The position numbers were made by a program, and so were the translations under genes. A stretch of DNA of 35,778 nucleotides from Gemmatimonadota bacterium (GTDB taxonomy: Bacteria > Gemmatimonadota > Gemmatimonadetes > Gemmatimonadales > GWC2-71-9): assembly GCA_003222205.1 (NCBI GenBank), contig QHVC01000109.1, forward strand, positions 1-35,778. The letters run 5' to 3'. The notes below the pieces were generated by a model. The model did not search any database and was not told the origin of the DNA. It was given only the letters and a program-made list of their open reading frames with translations. How positions within the stretch are numbered: the first letter of the stretch is position 1; each line of letters starts with the position of its first letter. Shown here one piece after another: positions 8,149-29,365 of this stretch.

Positions 8149-9107
8149 GAGTGCGCCTCGGCGCCGGCGAGCGACGGTAGCACCCGCTCGAACAGGAGCT
8201 GGCGCACGAGATCGGGCCGCACCTGCTCAGCGACCGCGATCTCGGGGCCCGCCTTGTCCCCGCGGGTCCGTCCGCGGTCGTCACCGTCGTCGAGGATCAC
8301 GGCGACGCGGGACGGCCGCAGCGCCATCACCTCGGGGCGCACCAGCGCCGCGATCGGCAGGATGTCGTTCACGACGCAGCCGTCGAGGCGCTCGCGACGG
8401 CGGTGGAACTCGACGTAGAACCGCAGCGCGTCGTGGAGCCAGCGCCCGGTGTCGTCGGACGACTGGCCGAGGCGCGCCACTTCCTCCGACGTCACCACGA
8501 TCTGACGCGTCACGTCGAGCGGCACCAGCTCGGTCCCCAGGCCGGCTCGCACCACGATGTCGAGCGCTTCGGGATCGCACCACGCGTTGAATTCGGAGTG
8601 GGGCGTGGTGTTGCCCTTGACGCGGAAGCAGCCCGCCATCGCGACGTGACGCGCCACCTTCGCGCGCACCAGCTCGCGCTCGCGGCGCAGCACCAGGGCG
8701 AGGCTCGTGGCCGGCCCCAGCGTCACCAGCGTCACGGGCTCGGTCTGGGCGGCGAGCAGCTGCTCCAGCGTCTTGGCGAAGTCGAGCACGCTCCCCGCGC
8801 GCGGCACCGCGGCGTAGCCGAGCCCCGAGTCGCCGTGGGTGTCGCGCGCGGTGACGAGCGGGCGCTTGAGCGGCCGCCGGGCGCCGACGGCGAGCGGCCG
8901 GCGCTGTCCCGCGCGCCGGAGGATCTCCACGGCGTTGCGCCACGCGTGCTCGATGACCGTGTTGCCGTAAGAGATCGAAATCCCCCGCACGTCCAGCTCC
9001 GGCGACTTGAGCGCCAGAAGCAGGGCGAGACAGTCGTCGATGCCGGGGTCGGTATCGATGATGACGGGATGGGGGATGGGGGATGAGGGATGGGGGGACG
9101 CGGTCAC
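8145..9107 (-). CDS. Nucleoside hydrolase (IU-NH family) with a repeat-derived N-terminus
   Basis: This 320-residue protein has the calcium-binding DTDPGIDD signature at residues 18-25 and the family core (LVTLGPATSLAL, then NTTPHSEFNAWCDPEA, then ELVPLDVTRQIVVT). These enzymes split the N-glycosidic bond of ribonucleosides. Where most family members have His-Asp near the C-terminus, this one has Asn-Asp (VVNDILPIAAL), so the usual catalytic His seems absent and specificity may differ. Start: GTG at 9107, ten bases after the preceding gene. No other start lies before the DTDPG motif. The residues between (ASPHPSSPIPHP) are encoded by a GGGATGG-type heptamer array. It overlaps the dehydrogenase gene by four bases. 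Confidence 0.85.
   Translation of the reverse strand: MTASPHPSSPIPHPVIIDTDPGIDDCLALLLALKSPELDVRGISISYGNTVIEHAWRNAVEILRRAGQRRPLAVGARRPLKRPLVTARDTHGDSGLGYAAVPRAGSVLDFAKTLEQLLAAQTEPVTLVTLGPATSLALVLRRERELVRAKVARHVAMAGCFRVKGNTTPHSEFNAWCDPEALDIVVRAGLGTELVPLDVTRQIVVTSEEVARLGQSSDDTGRWLHDALRFYVEFHRRRERLDGCVVNDILPIAALVRPEVMALRPSRVAVILDDGDDRGRTRGDKAGPEIAVAEQVRPDLVRQLLFERVLPSLAGAEAHS
9065..9097. repeat. GGGATGG heptamer array inside a coding start
   Basis: About five seven-base units (GGGATGG, GGGATGA variants) lie in the first codons of the nucleoside hydrolase on the minus strand. They are translated as a Pro/His/Ser-rich leader. The unit is the same as in the inverted pair at 149-220 and in the NAD synthetase linker at 27899-27929. 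No facing arm is present here. Confidence 0.8.
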
Positions 9108-11832: not shown

Positions 11833-12813
11833 ATGAGCAACGGTCTCTTGTCGGACGGTCGGACAGTCGGACGGTCGGTCGGTTATGCGTTGGCTGTCTT
11901 GTTGTCGGTCTGTCCGACGGTCCGACTGTCCGGCCAGGGGCAGGTGCAGGGCAGGGTGGGAGTCTCCGGCTACCTGCAGCCGCGCTTCCAGGCCCTCGGC
12001 GACTCCGCTTCCTTCTTCCTCCGGCGCGCCCGCTTCGCGGTCGAAGGGCAGGTCACACCGTGGGCGACGTTCCGCGCCCAGGTCGAGATGCGGACCATCG
12101 GCGCGCCGGCGACGCCCCCCACTTCTCCGCTCACGCTCTCGGCGACCGACCTGTGGATCCGGCTGAGTCACGAGCGGTGGGGCGGCACGGTAGGCCAGTT
12201 CCGCGTGCCGTTCTCGCTGGAATCGCTGCTCAGCTCGACGACGCTGGAGACGACCGAGCGCTCGCGCATCGTCAACGCGGCCCGGCGCGACATCGGCGTC
12301 CAGGCGGACTGGCACATCCCCGAGCTGACCCTGCAGGCCGCCGTGGTCAACGGCGAAGGGCCGAACCGCGCGACCAACCCGGACAACCGCATGGCCTATC
12401 TCGCCCGCGCCGTGGCCACACCCGTCCATGGTCTGGACGTGGGGGGCGCCTTCGCCGGCTACAGCGACAGCACGATCAGCAACGCGCAGGCGATGTATCG
12501 CGCGGGGCGGTGGACGGCGCGGGCCGAATACATCCGCGCGCACCACAAGACGGCGGGCCTACATACCAGAGGTTGGTACGTGCTGGCGGCGTACAACGTC
12601 GTTCCGCAGCAAGTCCAGGCCGTCGGTCGCGTCGAGCAGTACGACCCGAGCGACCAGGTGGCGACGGATCGCTCGACGGGCTACCTCGTCGGACTCCAGT
12701 ACTTCTTACGCGGCGACAATTTCAAGGTGATCGCCGACTACGAGATCTTCCGGGAGCAGGCGATGCCGGTGAAGAACAACCGCGGCGTGGTGCAGATGCA
12801 AGTGAGATTCTAA
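11833..12813 (+). CDS. OprO/OprP-like outer-membrane porin
   Basis: This 326-residue protein has a signal peptide followed by a barrel rich in alternating strands, with the phosphate-porin family hallmarks: SGYLQPRFQ at the start, FFLRRARFAVEGQV, WATFRAQVEM, GGTVGQFRVPFSLE and a C-terminal Phe (VVQMQVRF) needed for barrel insertion. Such porins pass anions such as phosphate. Start: ATG at 11833, with GGGGAG just before; an ATG six codons upstream is also possible. The signal peptide is encoded by an inverted octamer repeat (11850-11935), whose loop supplies the hydrophobic core GYALAVLLSV. The stop overlaps the TupA start (TAATG), so the porin and the oxyanion-binding protein are likely made together. 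Confidence 0.85.
   Translation: MSNGLLSDGRTVGRSVGYALAVLLSVCPTVRLSGQGQVQGRVGVSGYLQPRFQALGDSASFFLRRARFAVEGQVTPWATFRAQVEMRTIGAPATPPTSPLTLSATDLWIRLSHERWGGTVGQFRVPFSLESLLSSTTLETTERSRIVNAARRDIGVQADWHIPELTLQAAVVNGEGPNRATNPDNRMAYLARAVATPVHGLDVGGAFAGYSDSTISNAQAMYRAGRWTARAEYIRAHHKTAGLHTRGWYVLAAYNVVPQQVQAVGRVEQYDPSDQVATDRSTGYLVGLQYFLRGDNFKVIADYEIFREQAMPVKNNRGVVQMQVRF
11850..11935. repeat. Inverted octamer array (CGGACGGT type) encoding the porin signal peptide
   Basis: The left arm (about 11850-11883) is made of octamers of the type CGGACGGT/CGGACAGT. The right arm (about 11904-11935) is the facing complement (GTCCGACG, GTCCGACT). The 20-base loop between them encodes hydrophobic residues. The whole element is read in frame as the signal peptide of the porin. 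A second element of the same family lies 970 bases away at 12817-12905. Confidence 0.85.
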
Positions 12814-13670
12814 TGGGCGGACGGTCGGACTGTCGGACGGTCGGACTGTTAGTCGCTCTGCTTGGCGTTTTTCCGTCAGACCGTCCGACTGTCCGACAGT
12901 CCGACGTCGTTCTCTTAGCGACCACCACGTCCACCCGCGACGCGGGACTCCTCGACTCCCTGCTGCCCGTGTTCGAGCGCAAGACCGGCTACCGAGTGAA
13001 GGTGATCGCCGTCGGCAGCGGGCAGGCGCTGGCGATGGGACGGCGCGGGGACGCGGACGTCGTGCTGGCGCACGCGCCGGAGGCTGAGCGGCCGCTCGCC
13101 GACAGCGGCTACGTGCTCGACCGGCGCCTCGTGATGCACAACGATTTTCTGTTCGTGGGCCCGGCGGAGGACCCGGCGGGGCTGCGTGGCCTGTCCGACG
13201 CTGTGGCGGCGATGCGGCGGCTCGCTGAGCGGCACGGGCCCTTCATCTCGCGCGGCGACCAGTCGGGGACTCACGCGCGGGAGCAGGCCCTCTGGCGAGG
13301 GGCCGGCCTCACCCCGCCGGGGTCGAGCCCCCCTTCTTGGTACATGGAGTCGGGGCAGGGAATGGCGGCGACGCTGCAGATGGCTGACCAGAAGCGGGCC
13401 TACACGCTCACCGACCGGGCGACCTATCTGGCGTGGCGGGACAAGCTGCAGCTGGTCCCGATGGTCGAGGGCGATTCCCTGCTTTTTAACGTTTACCACG
13501 TCATGGCGGTCAACCCAAGGAACGCCCCACGGGTCAATACCGCGGGTGGCCGGGCTTTGGCCGACTTCTTCGTGTCCCCGGAAGCCCAGGCTCTGATCGG
13601 TGCGTTCGGCCGATCGCGGTTCGGGCAGAGTCTGTTCGTGCCCGACGCCGGCAAGCCGGACCGCTGGTGA
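12813..13670 (+). CDS. tupA: TupA-like tungstate/oxyanion ABC-transporter substrate-binding protein
   Basis: This 285-residue protein matches the TupA pattern: LLATTTSTRDAGLLDSLLP, then GYRVKVIAVGSGQALAMGRRGDADVVLAHAPEAE, then RRLVMHNDFLFVGP, RGDQSGTHAREQALW and a C-terminal NVYHVMAVNPRN. TupA proteins bind tungstate (some bind molybdate) in the periplasm. Start: ATG at 12813, overlapping the porin stop by one base. The first 33 residues, including a signal-peptide-like stretch (TVGLLVALLGVFP), come from an inverted octamer repeat. Unusually, no permease (TupB) or ATPase (TupC) gene is next to it. The partner upstream is an anion porin instead. The C-terminus ends PDAGKPDRW. Confidence 0.87.
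   Translation: MGGRSDCRTVGLLVALLGVFPSDRPTVRQSDVVLLATTTSTRDAGLLDSLLPVFERKTGYRVKVIAVGSGQALAMGRRGDADVVLAHAPEAERPLADSGYVLDRRLVMHNDFLFVGPAEDPAGLRGLSDAVAAMRRLAERHGPFISRGDQSGTHAREQALWRGAGLTPPGSSPPSWYMESGQGMAATLQMADQKRAYTLTDRATYLAWRDKLQLVPMVEGDSLLFNVYHVMAVNPRNAPRVNTAGGRALADFFVSPEAQALIGAFGRSRFGQSLFVPDAGKPDRW
12817..12905. repeat. Inverted octamer array (CGGACGGT type) encoding the TupA N-terminus
   Basis: The left arm (12817-12850) has octamers such as CGGACGGT and CGGACTGT. The right arm (about 12873-12905) has the facing forms ACCGTCCG and ACTGTCCG. The loop encodes VALLGVFP. It begins immediately after the TupA start codon. The organisation is the same as in 11850-11935, and the encoded peptides share TVG, a hydrophobic core and PTVR. 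Confidence 0.85.
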
Positions 13671-15131: not shown

Positions 15132-16442
15132 ATGCCGGAGCTCAAACGGTCGCTCGGCTTTTGGGACGGGCTCGCCATGGTGGTCGGCATCATGGTGGGG
15201 ACGGGGATCTTCCGCACCCCGGGGCTCGTCGCCCAGCGGCTCGGCCGACCGGCCCTCACCTTCGTCGCCTGGGCTGCCGGCGGCGCCATCGCCTTCCTCG
15301 GCGCGCTGATCTTCGCTGAGCTCGCCACCCGTCACCCCAACGCCGGCGGCAAGTACGTGTATGCGCGCGAGGCGTTCGGGAAAAGAGCCGGGTTCGTGGT
15401 GGGGTGGATCGAGGGGCTCGTCTACGCGGTGGCGACCGCGGCGATCGGCGTCGTGGCGGGGGAATACGCGGGCAGGCTCGTCGGCGTGGGCGACACGCGC
15501 TGGCTCGCCGCCGCGATCGTACTCCTGTTCACCGCGATCAATCTCCTCGGCGTCGCCTCCGGCCGTTGGGTGCAGAACCTGTCGACCGCTGCGAAGGTGG
15601 CGGCGCTCGCCGGCGTGGTGATCGTCGCGCTGGCTAAGGGCGACGGCAGCGGCTGGCACAGCGCGCTCTCCACCGCGCCCGCCGGAAGCGCCGTGTGGGG
15701 AGCGCTCGCCGTCGCGTTTCAGTCCGTCATCTGGACCTACTACGGCTACCTCGACGCGGGGAAGATCGCGGAAGAGGTGGTCGACCCCGGCCGCACGCTG
15801 CCGAGAGTGTTTCTGGGCGGGATCGGCGTGGCGGCGGCCCTGTACCTGCTGCTCAACGCGGCGTTCTTCCAGACGCTGCCGATCGAGCGCATCGCGGCGT
15901 CGAACCTGGTCCCCGGCGACGTCGTCTCGGCCCTGTTCGGCGCGGGCGGTGGGACGCTGGTCGCGGGGCTGGCGCTGCTCGTGGTGCTGGCGTCGCTCAA
16001 CGGCAACGTATTCGTGACGCCGCGCGTGATCTTCGGGCTGGCGCGCGAAGGGCTGGGGCCCGCGGCGCTGGCGCGGGTCAACACCGGCGGCACGCCGTGG
16101 GCGGCGATGCTGCTCATCGGCGCCGTCAGCACGGCCCTCGCCGTGACGGGGACGTTCGAGCGGCTGCTCGGCCTCGCCATCGCGCTGGTCCTCGTCATCG
16201 ATGGCTGGACCGTGCTGGCGCTGCTGCGGCTGCGGGCGCGGACGCCGCTCGCCCCGTTCCGGGTGCCGCTGTATCCCCTGGTGCCGGCGGTGTTCCTGCT
16301 GGTGTACGCCGCGTTGTTCGTGGGGATGGCGGTCGCCGACTGGAGGCCGGCGGGAGTGGCGCTGGGGGTGGTGGCGGTGGCCTACGGACTGGGACGGACC
16401 GGGGCGGACGGAGGCGGACGGAGGCGGACGGAGGAGGCATGA
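15132..16442 (+). CDS. APC-superfamily amino acid permease
   Basis: This 436-residue protein has about 12 hydrophobic helices. It begins LGFWDGLAMVVGIMVGTGIFRTPGLVAQ, the APC helix-1 signature with the GxGIF substrate-site break, followed by FAELATRHPNAGGKYVYAREAFG. Helix 6 reads AFQSVIWTYYGYLDAGKIAEEVVDPGRTLPR. This pattern fits the APA/LAT branch of secondary amino acid transporters; the substrate cannot be read. Start: ATG at 15132, with no strong ribosome-binding site. The last dozen residues (GADGGGRRRTEEA) are encoded by a GGACGGAGGC decamer array, which also provides the stop codon region. The next gene starts on the last base of the stop. Confidence 0.88.
   Translation: MPELKRSLGFWDGLAMVVGIMVGTGIFRTPGLVAQRLGRPALTFVAWAAGGAIAFLGALIFAELATRHPNAGGKYVYAREAFGKRAGFVVGWIEGLVYAVATAAIGVVAGEYAGRLVGVGDTRWLAAAIVLLFTAINLLGVASGRWVQNLSTAAKVAALAGVVIVALAKGDGSGWHSALSTAPAGSAVWGALAVAFQSVIWTYYGYLDAGKIAEEVVDPGRTLPRVFLGGIGVAAALYLLLNAAFFQTLPIERIAASNLVPGDVVSALFGAGGGTLVAGLALLVVLASLNGNVFVTPRVIFGLAREGLGPAALARVNTGGTPWAAMLLIGAVSTALAVTGTFERLLGLAIALVLVIDGWTVLALLRLRARTPLAPFRVPLYPLVPAVFLLVYAALFVGMAVADWRPAGVALGVVAVAYGLGRTGADGGGRRRTEEA
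16390..16438. repeat. GGACGGAGGC decamer array spanning a stop codon and a ribosome-binding site
   Basis: Four to five ten-base units run to the end of the APC permease gene. They encode its C-terminal tail, and their last GGAGG lies four bases before the ATG at 16442 of the TPR lipoprotein, serving as its Shine-Dalgarno sequence. The same decamer appears in reverse orientation at 26886-26949. Confidence 0.8.
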
Positions 16443-26845: not shown

Positions 26846-26885
26846 CCCCGGGGCGTGGCCCCGGGGTTGACCTACCCTGGCGTGT
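26846..26885. repeat. Dispersed hairpin repeat, copy 2
   Basis: CCCCGGGGC and GCCCCGGGG (26846-26866) pair around GTG, followed by GGTTGACCTACCCTGGCG and GTGT. The element matches the copy at 17375-17414 in order and spacing, with a few substitutions. It sits 27 bases after the stop of the last gene in the protease cluster. Confidence 0.75.
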
Positions 26886-26952
26886 GTCCGCCTCCGTCCG
26901 CCTCTGTCCGTCCCCGTCCGTCTCTGTCCGTCCCCGTCCACCCCTGTCCAAG
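26886..26952. repeat. Decamer array (GTCCGCCTCC type) before nadE
   Basis: About six ten-base units (GTCCGCCTCC, GTCCGTCCCC, GTCCGTCTCT variants) run up to a TATCTT box at 26953-26958, six bases before the nadE ATG. The unit is the reverse complement of the decamer at 16390-16438. It takes the place where a -35 box or a leader would be expected. Confidence 0.75.
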
Positions 26953-26964
26953 TATCTTTCCCCC

Positions 26965-28776
26965 ATGCTCCGCATCGCCGTCTCCCAGTTCCGCCCCACC
27001 AAGGGGGAGTACGCCCAGAACGTCGACCGCATCGCCGGCGTGCTGGGGCAGGCGATGGCGCTGGAGGTGCCGCCGGCGCTGGTCGTGTTCCCCGAGACGG
27101 CGACCTCCGGCTACTTCGTCGAAGGCGGCGTGAAGGACGTGGCGGTCACGGCGGGCACGCTGTTTCGCGATCTCCAAACGCGCTACGAGCCGCTCGGCGC
27201 GCCGCCGGTGGACGTGGCGGTCGGGTTCTACGAGGTGTTCCAGAACCACATCTTCAACTCCTGTCTGTACGCCTCACTCGGTAACGCCTCATCCCGCGAC
27301 GCCTCACCCGGCATCCGCCACGTGCACCGCAAGATCTTCCTGCCGACCTACGGCGTGTTCGACGAGGAGCGGTTCGTGGACTCGGGGCAGGACGGGGTGC
27401 GCGCGTTCGACACGGCCTGGGGCCGGGCGGCGATTCTCATCTGCGAGGACGCCTGGCACTCGCTGTGCGGCACCATCGCGGCGCTGGACGGCGCGCAGCT
27501 GATCCTCGTGCCCAGCGCGTCGCCGGCGCGCGGCACGGCGGTGGACGAAGACGGCACCCGGCTCCCCGCGAGCATGGTGCGCTGGGAGCGCGTGGTGCGC
27601 GGCATCGCCGAGGAGCACGGCGTGTTCGTGGTGCTCGCGAATCTCGTGGGGTTCGAGGGCGGCAAGGGGTTCCCCGGCGCGTCGGCGGTGCTGGACCCGA
27701 ACGGCTGTCTCGTGGTCCGTGGGCCGTTGTTCGAGGAGGGCCTCATCACGGCGGACATCGACCTGGAGCAGATCACGCATGCGCGGGTCGATGCGCCGTT
27801 GCTGTCGGATCTCCAAAAAGCCCTTCCCGGTCTCCTCCCTTCCCTGGGGAAGGGGAAGACGCGCAAGGTGAAATTCGACCCAGCTGCCAACGGGACCCAC
27901 GCATCCCTCATCCCCCATCCCGCATCCCCGGTGCGGGTGGTGGGTGGTGGTGCGCGCAACGGCGACCCCCTCGCCATCGACGGCGACCTCGTGCACAAGT
28001 GGCTGGTCGCCTTCTTGAAGGACGAAGTGGTGCGGCGTCGCGGGTTCACGCGCGGCATCGTGGGAGTGTCGGGCGGGGTGGACTCCTCGCTCACCGCGTT
28101 CCTCGCCGCGGAGGCGCTGGGGAAGGACAACGTGATCGCGGTGCGGATGCCGTACCGCACGTCGAGCCCCGAGTCGCTGGCCCACGCCCAGCTGGTGATC
28201 GACAAGTTGGGGATCCGCTCGCTCACCGTGGACATCAGCGCGGCGGTGGACGGCTATCTCGCCCAAATCGGCGACGCCGACCCCACGCGCAAGGGCAACG
28301 TGATGGCGCGCGAGCGCATGATCGTGCTGTTCGATCTGTCCGCCAAAGAACAGGCGCTGCCCATCGGCACCAGCAACAAGTCGGAGCGGCTGCTCGGCTA
28401 CTTCACCTGGCACGCCGACGACACCCCACCGGTGAACCCACTCGGCGACCTGTTCAAGACGCAGGTGTACGCGCTGGCGCGGCACGTGGGCGTCCCCGAG
28501 CAGATCCTCGCCAAGCCACCGACGCCCGACCTCGTGCCGGGGCAGGAGACGGAGCGGGACTACGGCTTCACGTACACGCAGGCCGATCCCATCCTGTATT
28601 ACCTGATCCGCGGCTACAAGCCGGAGGACGTGGTAGCGCGCGGCTTCGATGCCGCGCTCGTCGCCGCGGTGCACCGCCGCCTCGACTCGACGCACTGGAA
28701 ACGCCGTCTTCCGACCGTCGCGATGGTGTCGGGGACGGCGATCGGCGAGTTCTACCTGCGGCCGGTGGACTACTGA
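26965..28776 (+). CDS. nadE: NAD+ synthetase (nitrilase-type N-terminal domain plus NadE)
   Basis: This 603-residue protein joins two domains. The amidotransferase (nitrilase-like) domain spans 1-285 with the Glu-Lys-Cys triad E44 (FPETATSGY), K123 (HRKIFLPTYG) and C160 (ICEDAWH). The ATP-dependent synthetase domain runs from about 340, with the P-loop SGGVDSS at about 369-375 and GTSNKSERLLGYFTWHADD. It makes NAD from deamido-NAD using glutamine. The linker (about 288-330) and one surface loop (about 102-116) contain repeat-derived sequence. Start: ATG at 26965, because it begins exactly at the conserved LRIAVSQFRP strand; the longer frame upstream is a repeat. No ribosome-binding site is seen, so it may be leaderless. 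The thioesterase gene overlaps its stop. Confidence 0.93.
   Translation: MLRIAVSQFRPTKGEYAQNVDRIAGVLGQAMALEVPPALVVFPETATSGYFVEGGVKDVAVTAGTLFRDLQTRYEPLGAPPVDVAVGFYEVFQNHIFNSCLYASLGNASSRDASPGIRHVHRKIFLPTYGVFDEERFVDSGQDGVRAFDTAWGRAAILICEDAWHSLCGTIAALDGAQLILVPSASPARGTAVDEDGTRLPASMVRWERVVRGIAEEHGVFVVLANLVGFEGGKGFPGASAVLDPNGCLVVRGPLFEEGLITADIDLEQITHARVDAPLLSDLQKALPGLLPSLGKGKTRKVKFDPAANGTHASLIPHPASPVRVVGGGARNGDPLAIDGDLVHKWLVAFLKDEVVRRRGFTRGIVGVSGGVDSSLTAFLAAEALGKDNVIAVRMPYRTSSPESLAHAQLVIDKLGIRSLTVDISAAVDGYLAQIGDADPTRKGNVMARERMIVLFDLSAKEQALPIGTSNKSERLLGYFTWHADDTPPVNPLGDLFKTQVYALARHVGVPEQILAKPPTPDLVPGQETERDYGFTYTQADPILYYLIRGYKPEDVVARGFDAALVAAVHRRLDSTHWKRRLPTVAMVSGTAIGEFYLRPVDY
27269..27313. repeat. 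Three in-frame 15-base units inside nadE
   Basis: ACGCCTCACTCGGTA, ACGCCTCATCCCGCG and ACGCCTCACCCGGCA follow each other exactly. Read in frame they give YASLG, NASSR and DASPG, just before the conserved catalytic-lysine strand HRKIFLPTYG. The last two units look like an insertion into a surface loop of the nitrilase domain. Confidence 0.75.
27837..27929. repeat. Hairpin and heptamer array in the nadE interdomain linker
   Basis: CCCTTCCC (27837-27844) and GGGAAGGG (27847-27854) form a perfect inverted repeat around TG. Further on, 27899-27929 is a run of GCATCCC/TCATCCC/CCATCCC heptamers of the same family as 149-220 and 9065-9097. Both are translated within the linker between the amidotransferase and synthetase domains (LGKGKTRK, then HASLIPHPASP). 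Confidence 0.75.
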
Positions 28777-29263: not shown

Positions 29264-29365
29264 GAATGCAGAATGGGGAATGCGGAATGCGGAATTTCGA
29301 GGTGAGCGTCGTGGCGAACGACCACACCCGGGCATTCCGCATTCCGAATTCCGCATTCCGCATTT
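29264..29365. repeat. Inverted pair of GGAATGC heptamer arrays
   Basis: The left arm (29264-29296) contains GAATGCA, GAATGGG and two GAATGCG units. The right arm (29332-29365) contains the facing CATTCCG units. The 35-base core between them includes GAGCGTCGTG at 29304-29313. The element fills the gap between the thioesterase and the patatin gene and abuts the latter's GGTGGTAGG ribosome-binding site. Confidence 0.85.

Follow-up and report, generated by a model that had tools for sequence, protein, structure and literature searches.

Inverted octamer repeats encode predicted signal peptides at a porin gene, a tupA-like gene and other secreted-protein genes of a Gemmatimonadota genome

The porin and tupA-like genes and their repeat arms

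The window (the whole 35,778-nucleotide stretch that was analysed) carries two overlapping genes on the + strand. The first (11833..12813, by ORF reading) encodes a porin of the phosphate-selective porin O/P family (Pfam PF07396, Porin_O_P, E=4e-19), and the second is a tupA-like gene (12813..13670) for a periplasmic anion-binding protein (PF12849, PBP_like_2, E=6e-40). Direct reading of the sequence puts the TupA start ATG at 12813-12815, so that this start and the porin stop overlap as TAATG. The original prediction placed arrays of octamers facing each other at both gene starts, and they are present at 11850-11883/11904-11934 and at 12816-12849/12875-12905. The pattern GTCSGACNGTCSGAC (≤2 mismatches) has 12 matches in the window, every one within the porin and TupA starts; 2.2 are expected by chance, and none of 100 shuffles reached 12.

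In the porin gene, the n-side arm (11850..11883, + strand) consists of four GTCGGAC+N units, the last of which is GTCGGTC. The loop (11881..11903, +) starts with GGTTATGCG, the element centre being GTTAGGCG, and encodes the hydrophobic core. The c-side arm (11904..11934, +) runs GTCGGTC, GTCCGAC, GTCCGAC, GTCCGGC and is translated as LSVCPTVRLSG, its two Asp codons having become Val and Gly. ORF reading gives a repeat-encoded predicted signal peptide, MSNGLLSDGRTVGRSVGYALAVLLSVCPTVRLSG, followed by Q (+ strand). The TupA copy likewise has an n-side arm of four units (12816..12849, +). Its loop TGTTAGTCGCTCTGCTTGGCGTTTTTCC (12847..12874, +), one mismatch away from the element centre NGTTAGGCGC, encodes LLVALLGVF, and its c-side arm (12875..12905, +) reads GTCAGAC, GTCCGAC, GTCCGAC, GTCCGAC, or PSDRPTVRQSD, with both Asp codons left as they are and no good –1 cleavage residue. 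The loops form the hydrophobic cores as had been claimed (VGYALAVLLSV in the porin, VGLLVALLGVF in TupA). A positive n-region, a hydrophobic core and a small –1 residue, the features of a Sec signal peptide, are found in the porin and in at least 11 other copies. Since neither Asp codon is altered, TupA is the less certain export signal of the two and may stay uncleaved.

A translation start downstream of the repeats would have undone this picture. Reading of the sequence between the second TupA arm and the conserved mature LATTTSTRD revealed no in-frame ATG, GTG or TTG; hence the TupA repeat is translated, unless an unusual start codon is used or the gene is unread. The two loops had also been taken for copies of each other, which does not hold: they differ, and the near-twin of the porin loop lies on another contig, where an unrelated peptidase gene has it as its signal peptide (L059:2414; z=5.1 versus shuffles), with YALAVLLSV in the porin and YALAVLLSI in the peptidase gene. 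What the porin, peptidase and TupA copies have in common are the arms and a GTTANGCG-like loop start. The likeness of the porin and peptidase loops is consistent with a whole unit having been copied between unrelated genes, as judged from the sequences.

The repeat element and its enrichment at predicted signal peptides

The repeat unit is GTC[G/C]GAC followed by a single free base. Its orientation depends on the central base, and the facing arm is GTCCGAC. The genome that contains the window is a metagenome-assembled genome (MAG) of 2.97 Mb in 217 contigs. It holds 101 exact three-unit arrays, versus 0 for the reversed control. Reading around the listed arrays, we found arms that nearly always comprise four units (31 bp). 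Many of them form palindromes ∼77 bp long with a middle that resembles GTTAGGCGCCTAAC, and GTTAGGCGC is often at the centre. Pairs in the unselected sample described below have a constant order, a GTCGGAC arm followed by a GTCCGAC arm (13/13 '><', 0 '<>'). A MITE or RU-type element would carry terminal inverted repeats flanked by a target-site duplication; here there are inverted arms, and the 8 bases outside them show a weak G-rich bias and otherwise no consensus. As in Rickettsia palindromic elements, the palindrome is dispersed and lies in frame within protein genes. The exact unit occurs in only 8 of the 61 surveyed genomes, including this one, all from one family of the order. The signal-peptide form was also searched for across named genomes (257 Gb): the 14 stretches recovered (15 matches) all come from soil MAGs of Gemmatimonadetes, and all are signal-peptide-like N-termini of ORFs that run on for 96–686 codons.

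Integron attC sites have the motif order RYYYAAC ... GTTRRRY and come with cassettes and an integrase. An attC reading of GTTAGGC was rejected, because the centres (GTTAGGC...GCCTAAC) have the opposite motif order. The GTTAGGCGC/GCGCCTAAC centres of several short palindromes (L032:1535-1549, L076:343-358, L064:1490-1504) recall attC R motifs, in reversed order.

The TVG-hydrophobic-PTVR plan that had been noticed in the two proteins recurs in ∼20 predicted signal peptides of the genome (..RTVG, core, LSVSPTVRLS[A/G]Q). These ∼20 ORFs of unrelated secreted families follow one plan: M..RTVG/RSDG, a hydrophobic loop, then LSVSPTVRLSAQ or LSGQ. The families represented (several assigned by Pfam) are porin, TupA, M16 peptidase, cytochrome c, LolA, SPOR/TPR, DUF4159, DUF1800 and LytR_C, together with a secretin-like protein (secretin N domain). 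We looked for the octamer at gene starts in a 713-kb unselected sample of the genome, with 666 genes called by a dicodon model and 183 signal peptides called by a crude rule, which is simpler than SignalP and misses TupA. The sampled contigs are large and already known to carry arrays, which could shift the density of elements but not their position relative to genes. Signal-peptide zones, 3.2% of the sequence, contain 9 of the 36 elements in the 713 kb (P-value = 1.6e–6), or 10 if TupA is added. A repeat-blind measure, lag-8 periodicity, picked out 8 of 183 signal-peptide starts versus 1 of 456 other gene starts (P-value = 2.7e–4) and 1 of 876 gene interiors (P-value = 5e–6). The idea of one element copied to two gene starts stands in so far as a single family is found at many gene starts; its distribution is genome-wide, and not that of a copy common to two neighbours. 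The N-termini encoded by the repeat probably direct export.

Codon changes, the origin of the core and related genomes

In the frame used by the signal-peptide copies, an unaltered second arm would read L-S-D-x-P-T-V-R-x-S-D, with the first Asp in the hydrophobic core and the second at the signal-peptidase site. Of the 17 signal-peptide arms, 14 have V, A, L or I in place of the first Asp, versus a change of the same base in 4 of 69 other four-unit arrays (P-value = 4e–10), and 12 have A, G or S in place of the second, versus a change of that base in 9 of 69 (P-value = 6e–6). When copies found by a pattern that itself demands the changes are left out, the P-value is 1e–7 for the first Asp and 5e–4 for the second (8 of 13 arms). 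In the signal-peptide copies, hydrophobic and small residues stand in place of Asp, which is what a functional signal peptide requires.

The loops open with the element centre NGTTAGGCGC (≤3 mismatches) in 7 of 16 cases, including the porin and TupA (background 1.5%, P-value = 1.8e–9), and in 5 of 16 the centre is at the other end of the loop. These data support the view that much of the signal peptide comes from one repeat family, and that the hydrophobic core does so at least in part. Some of the core may be ancestral: LLVALLGVFPS in TupA compares with LLAVLLSIVPS in relatives. A purely ancestral core was also considered; it is weakened by the retention of the element centre in the loops.

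Homologues with the same N-terminus but no repeat in the DNA would have spoken against the original prediction. The porin and TupA orthologues, which are 71–82% identical, have different N-termini with other signal peptides and no GTCSGAC arrays. They adjoin in five related genomes (G014, G068, G063, G073 and G072). Because these array-free orthologues already carry other signal peptides, the porin and TupA export signals were apparently re-made on proteins that were exported before or without this element. The claim of export signals made from the repeat therefore survives in part, with an existing signal replaced or rewritten, whereas a route to new secreted proteins is not supported.

At the orthologous signal peptides and in the same frame, G063 has GTCCGCC octamers (LSASPPVRLSAQ), and G014/G068 have ATCCGTCT octamers (TATCCG; AVYPSIRLSAQ). 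Where the sequence was read, inverted n-side arms are found in the G063 and G014/G068 copies too. Among ten genomes tested, the GTCCGCC and ATCCGTCT units are limited to their respective genomes, except for two GTCCGCC arrays in the genome of the window. Some octamer periodicity is itself frequent in the signal peptides of relatives, so that presence or absence of an array is not a clean distinction. Either arrays held in common are homogenised genome by genome, or one set of sites is colonised again and again; TupA and porin protein trees did not decide between the two, nor on an insertion common to G000 and G018. We give an even chance to the broader proposal that signal peptides of this Gemmatimonadota family are a recurrent landing and renewal site for genome-specific inverted tandem repeats. 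The signal of the same gene would be re-encoded in each lineage (by GTCGGAC, GTCCGCC or ATCCGTCT octamers, decamers or heptamers), and the palindrome would be a ready-made proto-signal peptide.

Single in-frame arrays also lie inside thiolase, TilS, histidine kinase, Thr aldolase, TatD and other proteins, mostly with no change of length versus relatives and often with array-like sequence at the same codons in those relatives. The TilS genes of G000 (L063) and G073 (L290) have an array of four units over the same codons but in opposite orientations, GTCGGAC in G000 and GTCCGAC in G073, and no indel separates them. The unchanged length, the array-like sequence in relatives and the flipped TilS array argue for replacement or conversion at the in-protein sites, more than for simple insertion.

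Proposed takeover of export signals and alternative explanations

From these sequence comparisons, we consider it likely that a dispersed palindromic repeat took over or rebuilt export signals at the starts of secreted-protein genes and was then adapted by selection. The palindrome, with four GTCGGAC+N units on one side of a centre like GTTAGGCGCCTAAC and four GTCCGAC+N units on the other, would spread and land at gene 5′ ends among other places. Read in the right frame, it would already come close to a signal peptide: RTVGRSDG with its Arg from the first arm, GLLGA.. from the centre, and LSDSPTVRLSD from the second arm. Landing on the start of a gene for a secreted protein, it would take over or rebuild the export signal. 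Selection would then favour a longer hydrophobic centre, Val, Ala, Leu or Ile in place of the core Asp, and Ala, Gly or Ser at the cut site. The porin and TupA would be two such copies, the TupA copy being less adapted. We infer both the order of these events and that the element is either mobile or kept uniform by recombination.

It is possible, if rather doubtful, that a selfish palindrome is merely tolerated in permissive signal peptides, with an ancestral core to which the repeat adds nothing. The in-frame arrays at permissive sites of ordinary proteins (thiolase, TilS, histidine kinase, Thr aldolase, TatD) fit this explanation, as does the resemblance of the TupA core to that of G014/G068. 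Against it stand the excess in signal-peptide zones, the constant '><' order, the element centre being part of the core, and Asp replacements that are specific to the core and the cut site. An origin of the octamer within signal peptides is unlikely; in this reading, slippage or conversion would have turned an ancestral c-region LSxxPxxRLSAQ into an array that spread outward from there. This motif has LS twice, 8 codons apart (24 nt, or three octamers), and the signal peptides of relatives share it, with the frame unchanged but the octamers of several kinds. Yet signal peptides contain only a minority of the arrays, short-centre palindromes are found elsewhere, and such an origin would leave the inverted n-side arm unexplained.

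Quite improbable, in our view, is a regulatory mRNA or DNA hairpin that controls translation or transcription of the operon, with the peptide being incidental. Both transcripts have strong predicted folds over the start region (z –3.5 and –4.7), and other short repeats near starts were proposed to be translational sites (PMC4679880), but the codon changes that fit the peptide break the complementarity of the arms, and arrays exist inside genes. No Rfam family was found above the gathering score, only sub-threshold matches of miRNA-type hairpins. An assembly or binning artefact, or a translation start past the repeat, is hardly credible even for a MAG in 217 contigs, given that several independent MAGs, and orthologous genes too, show the same architecture and that TupA has no in-frame ATG, GTG or TTG before its mature domain.

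Takeover by the repeat, if correct, would bear on a wider question. Signal peptides evolve fast, and little is documented about the source of new ones; in this genome the raw material can be read off directly. Over its three-frame cycle, the octamer encodes much the same peptide whichever frame is used, and many stages from unmodified (TupA, the DUF4159 protein) to tuned (LSVSPTVRLSAQ) are caught. The origin and replacement of export signals becomes testable by simple fusions, and non-coding repeat DNA may repeatedly supply a functional protein part in bacteria.

Cyanobacterial STRR heptamers are dispersed short tandem repeats. The TAACTGA direct repeats of Beggiatoaceae lie mostly just upstream of start codons (PMC4679880). 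Both resemble the octamer element in their short tandem units, few copies per site and >100 sites per genome, but they are mainly intergenic and direct, whereas the octamers form inverted pairs and code for protein. The nearest known kinds are the palindromic elements of Rickettsia and the RU elements of enterobacteria. The former (RPE; Ogata et al. 2000, 2002, as cited in PMC6649704) are described there as dispersed palindromes in frame in genes whose function is kept, and to that extent the two systems are alike. Compared by description, the Gemmatimonadota element differs in its arms of tandem octamers, its signal-peptide enrichment and a unit that varies among related genomes. Nematomorph mitochondrial genes also have inverted repeats within coding sequence (PMC6649704), but these are organelle genes with perfect long arms and no signal peptides. 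The idea of a repeat as a source of signal peptides is already known: the enterobacterial small mobile sequences RU-1, RU-2 and RU-3 are MITE-like units of 127–168 bp with a few predicted cases (Delihas 2007; PMC2759123), in contrast to ∼20 genes in one genome, several genomes and codon-level adaptation here. In the literature searched, with most subscription papers outside its scope, neither Gemmatimonadetes repeats nor signal-peptide origin as a topic gave a prior report. Scale, location bias, codon tuning and lineage-specific units, that is, a recurrent palindromic signal-peptide repeat with turnover, look new.

Several other repeats were seen along the way. Further inverted or tandem heptamer arrays (GCGGGAT/CGCATCC, CATCCCC/GGGTGGT, GAATGCG/GCATTCC) occur in the window at 149-219, 9066-9096, 27902-27950 and 29264-29364, some in frame at gene ends. 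Decamer arrays (CGGACGGAGG; TGTCCGTCCC) lie at 16395-16434, at the 3′ end of a permease gene, and at 26885-26949, at the 5′ end of an NAD synthetase-like gene. Read directly, the TupA signal peptides of G063, G030 and G064 (L118, L121, L122) appear to have decamer-like periodicity, and the signals of DUF4159 (L174, L176, L182) and cytochrome c (L175, L180) orthologues in other genomes look heptamer-like. In G068 (L272, ∼1440-1560), an inverted ATCCGTCT array directly follows the 3′ end of an apparent tRNA gene.
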